DNA of 37,089 nt from Nitrososphaeraceae archaeon (lineage in GTDB: Archaea > Thermoproteota > Nitrososphaeria > Nitrososphaerales > Nitrososphaeraceae): assembly GCA_016782225.1 (NCBI GenBank), contig JADDOW010000082.1, forward strand, positions 1 through 37,089. Reading direction: 5' to 3'. Of this stretch, positions 5,789-21,510 are shown piece after piece; positions within the stretch are counted from its first letter, which is position 1; the number at the start of each line of letters is the position of its first letter. A model generated the notes under the pieces. That model was not told the origin of the DNA, searched no databases, and saw only the letters and a program-made list of their open reading frames with translations. The translations under genes were made by a program, and so were the position numbers.

Positions 5789-6185
5789 TTGGCCATAAAG
5801 AGTATCATAGAACTTGACGATTTGGCAAAGGCCAAAGTAGTACAGATGATTTTAGATAAAAAAACCGAGGAGGCGTTGCATAGCCTAAGCGCACACTATA
5901 AAGTCAATCCACTCCAAATAGTTGTTGGGACCATAAAGGGAAAAAAAAGAACGGTATATGCGGTTTATGTTCAAAGAGAGAGAGAGAAAGATATATTGCT
6001 CAAATTCTGGCATATTTTACAATCCCTTTATAGTACTGCATGAGTTTTATCACCACATAAGAACAACAGGAGGCATTCACAAAGGATCAGAAAAATACGC
6101 TAACAGATATGCAAAAGGATTCACCGATTCCTACAATAAAATAATAGAGGTCATAATCAACCGTAATCAGAAAAATCAGATTTAA
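5789..6185 (+). pseudogene. HExxH metallopeptidase-like gene, frameshifted at an (AG)6 tract
   Basis: Two overlapping frames read as one protein of about 132 residues. The first frame (5789-6043, TTG start) gives an N-terminal part ending near VYAVYVQRERE. The second supplies the C-terminal part with FIVLHEFYHHIR and, further on, SEKYANRYA. HEFYH is an HExxH zinc-peptidase motif and the later glutamate fits an ImmA/IrrE-like third ligand. The switch falls in an (AG)6 tract at 5975-5986. Adding one AG unit would join the frames exactly, and there is no stop in the joined frame before 6183. It may be a pseudogene, a phase-variable gene or a sequencing error. As written, the first frame ends in an unrelated tail and lacks the HExxH site. 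Confidence 0.6.
5975..5986 (+). repeat. (AG)6 dinucleotide tract
   Basis: Six AG units lie inside the metallopeptidase-like gene at the point where the reading frame breaks. An A8 run (5941-5948) lies just upstream. Both are slippage-prone. Confidence 0.7.
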
Positions 6186-6585
6186 AAAAAACAACAGGGT
6201 AACTAGTGAAACATAAAATTAAGATGTTATGCATATACAACCAAAACATGCAATAAGCGGGGTAAGAAAATAAAGTATTGGAGAATTGCGTACATTCTGG
6301 ATCTTTTGGTATTGTGTACTAAAGTCAAAACATACTGAAATGTCTAAGGTATTTTTAACTTATGCCTACTTTAATTCATACAGATTATTCTGTTTGTTTG
6401 TTTATGGATCGCAAACCAGTATGTATGTATTTGTTATTTCTGATAATAGCATATATGGCTTTAACATCCAGTCAAAAAGGATTCAATTTATTTTAGGCAT
6501 CCTGAATTAAACCATAAATAAAAAAAACAAACAGCATGTTTTATGTTGTGTATGTCTTTATTTTCCACTCCAATGCTATGTAAGA
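6186..6585. other. intergenic region
   Basis: Contains a 74-codon TTG-started frame (6286-6510) with no recognisable motif and a hydrophobic, aromatic-rich composition that I do not accept as a gene. A probable terminator for the leftward hydrolase gene lies at its right end. Confidence 0.4.
6515..6530 (-). terminator. T-run terminator of the dienelactone hydrolase gene
   Basis: An A8 run on the plus strand (6520-6527) gives an eight-T run on the minus strand, 59-66 bases past the hydrolase stop. Archaeal transcription commonly ends at such T tracts without needing a hairpin. Confidence 0.4.
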
Positions 6586-7452
6586 CTATACATATTTTCT
6601 CAAGAAATCCAAGGTCCTTTTCCATGCGTCAGCAGTTTCTTTCGGTGCAAAATTATCATTAGAAGGGTTTGCAAATGCGTGTCCGACACCAGGGTAGACA
6701 TAAATTTCATTTGTTATTCCTGTTTCGTTTAGGGCCTTTTGGAATTGTTTTACCGAATCAACAGGGATAGCCCTGTCCTGTGCGCCAAATATACCCAATA
6801 CAGGCCATGTTATGTTGGAAAGGGCTTTAGTGTCATTTGTTAGTGGAATGCCATAGTATATTACCGTAGCAGAAAGAGGGTGATCTTTGCTGTTGAGGGC
6901 TAGTTGCAAAGATTGACCCCCACCAAAACACCAACCTAACGATGCGATTCTGGAGGCATTAACGTTATCAAGGGAACTTAGATATCTTACTGCGGATTTC
7001 ATGTTCTCAATTGAAATGGCGGGATTCTCCCTAATCATTGACGTTAATTCCCTTGATCGATTTTGATCTGTGGCGATTTCCCCTTGAAAAAGATCAACTG
7101 CCAATACAACATACCCCTGTTGGGCCAAGATATCTGCCGAGTCTTTGATGTAATCATTTAGTCCTTTGTTCTCATGTATCATAACAATTGCAGGCAGCTT
7201 TTTCTCCTGATTAGTCTGATCTGATGATGGATATACAAGATATCCAGTTGCATTTTCATGATAGATGACAGTCTTGTTTTCTAAGGGACTGGCATTTGCT
7301 TCAGTATTGTTATCTTTATTACCCATGCTACTTACCAAGGTCATTGTTGCTGTTGCAGTTGTCTTTTGAGCATAAGCGGATTGGGCATTTAACGTATATG
7401 AAAATGGTATTATGAAAAACAGTAACAACAATACTATAGCCAGTTGTCTCAT
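6586..7452 (-). CDS. secreted dienelactone hydrolase family protein
   Basis: A 288-residue alpha/beta hydrolase. Residues 1-28 form a signal peptide (basic start, long Leu/Val/Phe core, AxA-like end), followed by a Thr/Ala/Asn-rich linker to about residue 60, so the enzyme is probably exported or anchored outside the membrane. The family triad is present: Cys175 in GWCFGGGQ, Asp226 in GAQDRAIP and His258 in GVGHAF. Glu94 (HENKGLN) matches the glutamate that interacts with the cysteine in classical dienelactone hydrolases. The reaction is hydrolysis of a lactone or ester; the substrate is unknown. The ATG start is clear and the gene stands alone. Confidence 0.9.
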   Translation of the reverse strand: MRQLAIVLLLLFFIIPFSYTLNAQSAYAQKTTATATMTLVSSMGNKDNNTEANASPLENKTVIYHENATGYLVYPSSDQTNQEKKLPAIVMIHENKGLNDYIKDSADILAQQGYVVLAVDLFQGEIATDQNRSRELTSMIRENPAISIENMKSAVRYLSSLDNVNASRIASLGWCFGGGQSLQLALNSKDHPLSATVIYYGIPLTNDTKALSNITWPVLGIFGAQDRAIPVDSVKQFQKALNETGITNEIYVYPGVGHAFANPSNDNFAPKETADAWKRTLDFLRKYV

Positions 7453-20645: not shown

Positions 20646-21510
20646 TATATTTTAGTTAAATGATTAAGAATAGTTTATTTTAAATATTTTATGTTTTTCT
20701 TTACAAAGTTTCTGCAACTCTAATATTTTGAAGGTTTAGGTTTATTTTTTTATACATGGTTATTTTGTTAAATACACAGCTATTTTGAAATCGCTACTGC
20801 TTTTATAATTGCAGGAATCTGATTTACCTGTTAGGAAAAAAGCATGCCGACTTAACTACTCCAAATCAACATACGCTCATTTTGCTTCAATTTCAAGTGC
20901 AAATAACAACTGGATCACATCAGGCCAATGGATGCATAAACAAACAAAAAGGCCCAAATGGTGAACGGTTCTTTAGTGTTTTTTACACTTTAACTGAATT
21001 CTAAAGGTGTCTTGGCAAACGTGCCTCTGCCCCCCCCCCACTCATAAAATAAGCAATAATTCAAATGTAAATGAATAATACACATCAACAGGCAAGTAAT
21101 AACATTCAATAGCACTGTTTAAAAAAATGCAAGGCGCCCAGTCAGCATCAATGTTACTACCAATCATACTATGCGAATAACAATACAACAGATATTTCCA
21201 CTTATCTATCGAAAGCAGTTAACCATTTTGGCAACAATCAGTTTATGGTTATTTCACAATTGCAAAAAGCGAATGAGAGAAATAAAAAAGATTAAGGATT
21301 CCCAAGCATTGAGAAAATTGGATTCACCTTAATGCACAGAATGCATAATGCCAGAAAAGAAAAACCGAAAAAGGGATCATTTAATGACGAATGGCATACC
21401 GATAGCAAAGGCAATACAACCAACAATACAAAATAAAATCCATGGTTTGTTTGGAGTCCCTATTTTTTTAGTTTCTTACCCAGCCAAAATGATATTTTTC
21501 CATACCGCTA
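20646..21510. other. 865-base gene-free stretch
   Basis: No convincing gene. A plus-strand frame at 21348-21548 overlaps the 3' end of the beta-helix gene antisense and is rejected. The notable content is a C10 homopolymer at 21030-21039 in an AT-rich background. No tRNA, hairpin-plus-T-run or repeat array was recognised. Confidence 0.5.

Follow-up and report, generated by a model that had tools for sequence, protein, structure and literature searches.

The window, that is, the whole stretch of 37,089 nucleotides from a soil-type archaeon analyzed here, contains a small gene for a predicted HExxH protein whose reading frame is broken at a dinucleotide repeat. The break is probably the result of a recent inactivation by slippage that left an early pseudogene, and as such it would represent ordinary gene loss and not an on/off switch.

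Frame break at an (AG)6 tract

The (AG)6 tract coincided exactly with the reading-frame change of the gene (Table 1). Residues 1 to 72 of ORF1 aligned with homologues; past the tract, ORF1 was out of frame and ended at a TGA codon (positions 6041 to 6043), and the overlap of ORF1 with ORF2 spanned the tract. When joined, the two ORFs gave a protein of 132 amino acids that aligned end to end with that of an intact relative at 92% identity. This indicated that ORF1 and ORF2 belong to a single broken gene rather than being two ORFs that arose by chance. The first-pass annotation, which had placed the break exactly at the tract and had noted HEFYH plus a downstream Glu in the joined protein, was thus borne out, since the two ORFs met at the tract and together made up the relative's full length, and since both sequence elements were present and were conserved in homologues. 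It had also proposed that one more AG unit would restore the gene; seven units are in frame arithmetically, but the intact allele of the relatives is two units shorter.

Table 1. Features of the broken gene, in window coordinates
Feature	Positions	Strand	Description
ORF1	5789..6043	+	84 aa, TTG start; N-terminal part of the HExxH gene, original frame
A8 run	5941..5948	+	Arose in this lineage by AGA to AAA (R53K) in a conserved GKRRTV motif; no indel relative to relatives
ORF2	5958..6185	+	75 aa, with HEFYHH; C-terminal part of the same gene, shifted frame
(AG)6 tract	5975..5986	+	Site of the frame break; exceeds the length in both closest relatives by 4 bases (2 units)
HEFYHH	6039..6056	+	Predicted zinc-binding/catalytic HExxH motif
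Glu of GSEKYAN	6090..6092	+	Candidate third zinc ligand; corresponds to E100 in the intact homologue; conservation in alignment A2 of 90% or more

Polarity of the change in tract length

A search of 61 genomes around the window's own recovered the gene in 37; relatives were compared with one genome per species. In the closest relative, a Nitrososphaeraceae metagenome-assembled genome (G001; L001/L031) with 95% nucleotide identity, the gene was intact and the tract region read CAA AGA GAG AGA AAG, that is, (AG)4. The gene was likewise intact in the second-closest relative (G010; L002/L032; 84% nucleotide identity), where the corresponding region, CAA GGG GAG AGA AAA, had the same length as in G001 but with the repeat interrupted. 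The check for an intact gene in relatives thus had a positive outcome, and because gene order in both genomes was the same as in the window, the intact orthologue stood in the same place, as is expected of the counterpart of a pseudogene. Both relatives were 4 bases shorter than the window at the tract, and no AG tract was found at the equivalent position in approximately 28 further Nitrososphaeria homologues, which were intact. On this comparison, the additional 4 bp (two AG units) in the window is a derived insertion. It was the sole frame-breaking difference from G001 and G010 found to disrupt a window gene, and the neighboring window genes were intact ORFs, most of them with clear Pfam domains. 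The A8 run, put forward earlier as a second slippage site, did not hold up as such: it is a derived, one-substitution novelty private to the window lineage and shows no indel relative to the relatives.

Among the related genes, nearly all of which were intact, a distant homologue (L045, 1060-1360; G341:C136) also appeared to be frame-broken near its middle. It was ruled out as a sign of a recurrent frameshift site because the sequence at its break was different and contained no AG tract.

The overlap of two frames at a repetitive purine tract might also point to programmed ribosomal frameshifting or transcriptional slippage, either of which would yield a full-length protein. However, the relatives encode the protein in a single continuous frame with no slippery site, so that no frameshift signal is conserved; programmed frameshifting was rejected on this ground, and recoding as a whole is very improbable.

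Substitutions in the broken copy

Changes on the window branch were polarized with G001 and G010, which gave 8 nonsynonymous and 6 synonymous changes. The ratio was not different from that in other close pairs of the family (P = 0.53), and its departure from neutrality was only weak (P = 0.04 to 0.15, depending on transition bias). The positions of the changes were more telling. Of five polarized amino acid changes, three (P42L, R53K, and I111T) fell in columns at least 90% conserved, as scored among more distant relatives, compared with 0 of 21 changes on two sister branches (Fisher's exact test, P = 0.004). P42 was invariant in 26 phylum-wide homologues, and a fourth change, D73G, affected a column that was always D or E. 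Although the numbers are small, these conserved-site changes suggest that constraint on the window copy has relaxed. No further nonsense mutation was found in the broken gene, and the apparent decay rests on few substitutions and is very recent.

An error of assembly or consensus, in which the real gene would be in frame at the tract and functional, is unlikely, but it is the strongest of the alternatives. The source is a single draft genome of 118 contigs, and many frameshifts that occur singly among intact homologues are expected to be sequencing errors, according to a broad survey of frame transitions in prokaryotes (PMC3711429). On the other hand, short-read errors do not typically take the form of a clean 4-bp difference in a dinucleotide tract of 12 bp, none of the other window genes compared with the two relatives was broken, and an error in tract length would leave the substitutions at conserved residues unexplained.

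Probable slippage inactivation versus phase variation

The first-pass annotation had taken the tract for a site of slipped-strand phase variation, at which changes in repeat number would reversibly switch the gene on and off in the population. The break does coincide exactly with a dinucleotide tract, one of a length seldom seen in this genome; the number of repeat units sets the reading frame (as in phase-variable genes), and one or two slips from (AG)6 would give an open frame. The tract is not conserved, however, being (AG)4 in the closest relative, interrupted in the next, and absent from the others, and a tract-linked break was seen in only one genome of the family. Moreover, the changes at conserved residues hint at relaxed constraint. 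No second allele has come to light, viral contigs contained neither a relative nor such an allele, and a polymorphic tract is unlikely.

The genome is also poor in such repeats. In its 2.62 Mb, (AG)6 occurred three times; one of the other two copies lay inside an intact proteasome-type gene and the other had no long ORF around it. In a 289-kb sample used for a census of dinucleotide tracts, the window (AG)6 was the only tract of at least six units, and none exceeded six. A Markov model gave an expectation for this sample of approximately 0.3 tracts of at least six units over all dinucleotide types, and none of the AG type. The (AG)6 in the proteasome gene, the sole other coding copy, was unchanged in length in the sister genome, a comparison whose value is limited because selection on the frame of that gene must be strong. 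A C10 homopolymer at positions 21030 to 21039 of the window was the only G/C run of at least eight in the 289 kb sampled; it lies in a region without a long ORF, and its length makes it a likelier site of slippage than the AG tract.

Of two published schemes for phase variation, one requires a cluster of at least five frameshifted homologues with repeats (PMC3711429) and the other defines it by measurable reversible switching (PMC11868660); neither feature was seen here. The window gene resembles the simple-sequence-repeat phase-variable genes of bacterial phasomes (PMC11868660) in having a coding dinucleotide tract whose number of units determines the frame. Unlike those genes, its tract is short, is not kept in relatives, and has no second allele, and it belongs to a tract-poor genome and to a gene that is neither a surface nor a restriction-modification gene. 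Phase variation is hence a doubtful reading of this locus, with poor prospects even next to an assembly error. Its most specific form, a newly arisen population-level switch of a metallopeptidase-like gene caught in the off state in a lineage of ammonia-oxidizing archaea, is less probable still.

Inactivation by slippage, the reading that we prefer, would have started from a short AG run encoding Gln-Arg-Glu-Arg-Lys in a single-copy, stand-alone gene. The run would have grown by two units, in a single step or in two, and slipped-strand mispairing during replication is the most likely cause. The resulting frameshift would stop translation at the TGA beside the HExxH codons, so that no metal site would be made, and the broken copy would then begin to lose residues that are conserved elsewhere. 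The data show the 4-bp difference and its polarity, the intact relatives, and the substitutions at conserved sites; from these we infer slippage as the mechanism, loss of function, and absence of switching. The case resembles the singleton "hypothetical pseudogene" class (PMC3711429) in that one genome is hit while homologues are intact, a short tandem repeat carries the indel, and conserved sites have changed; it differs in that decay is very recent, with few substitutions, and a sequencing error, although unlikely, is a rival reading. The gene is dispensable, since it is missing from G005 and G025, both of them complete and from the same genus and family, and no second copy was found in the window's own genome. 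If events were as they appear, the case is clean but minor: slippage in a short repeat disabled a small gene that the cell can do without. It also serves as a warning that phase variation should not be concluded simply from a repeat at the site of a frame break.

A conserved HExxH family in Thermoproteota

Intact homologues are stand-alone proteins of approximately 115 to 145 amino acids, and their distribution within Thermoproteota is patchy (43 of 300 genomes). One genome, G339, carries three copies (C60, C38, and C16) of this normally single-copy gene. The core motif is NPF(V/I)(I/V)LHEFYHH(L/I)R...H(K/R)G(T/S)E..A..FA, in which H83, E84, Y86, and H87 were invariant in 26 diverse homologues (alignment A2) and E100 was nearly so. 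No family member reached a curated Pfam or NCBIfam cutoff or gave a convincing model match. Pfam M78 (PF06114) had no match over its cutoff in 41 genomes, and below the cutoff it matched 2 of the 26 homologues (E ≥ 0.04). The best profile match of the family was to the "metallo-protease" profile phrog_87, which matched 23 of the 26 members (best E value, 1e-10) as well as the window's own C-terminal piece (E = 5e-4). An AlphaFold2 model built from seven homologues was too poor (pLDDT 57) for a claim about the fold; a Foldseek search of this model against the PDB and profile searches of solved structures returned no match.

The earlier assignment to ImmA/IrrE-like metallopeptidases was therefore weakly supported, by the phrog_87 matches but not by Pfam M78. 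The family shares with ImmA/IrrE (COG2856; PF06114, Peptidase_M78) the HExxH motif, a later Glu in an E..AN.FA-like motif, and weak profile-level similarity to phrog_87, a metallo-protease family of phages. It differs in falling below the Pfam cutoff, in being short, and in having no HTH fusion, and the window gene has no recognizable adjoining Xre-type gene. The product is regarded here as a distant ImmA/IrrE-like predicted zincin that is not a member of M78. That a conserved HExxH family with no curated name spans Thermoproteota, as a candidate distant relative of ImmA/IrrE, is the more useful side result.

Gene neighborhood

An Xre partner is typical of COG2856 (PMC2701414). The window neighbors identified by Pfam were a NUDIX gene and a dienelactone hydrolase gene, and thus no Xre-family HTH gene, adjacent or fused, was found among them. 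The HExxH family has no obvious operon partner. The dienelactone hydrolase gene of the window (6586-7452) was intact, unlike that of the sister genome G001, which was split between two frames (L040; + strand, 1315-2261 of a contig of 3265 bases in all). The stretch of approximately 330 bp that separates the broken gene from the hydrolase gene (6197-6523) was absent from the sister genome, and both of its ends carried a similar A-rich repeat (AAAAAAAACAA), which suggests either an insertion or a deletion bounded by short direct repeats.
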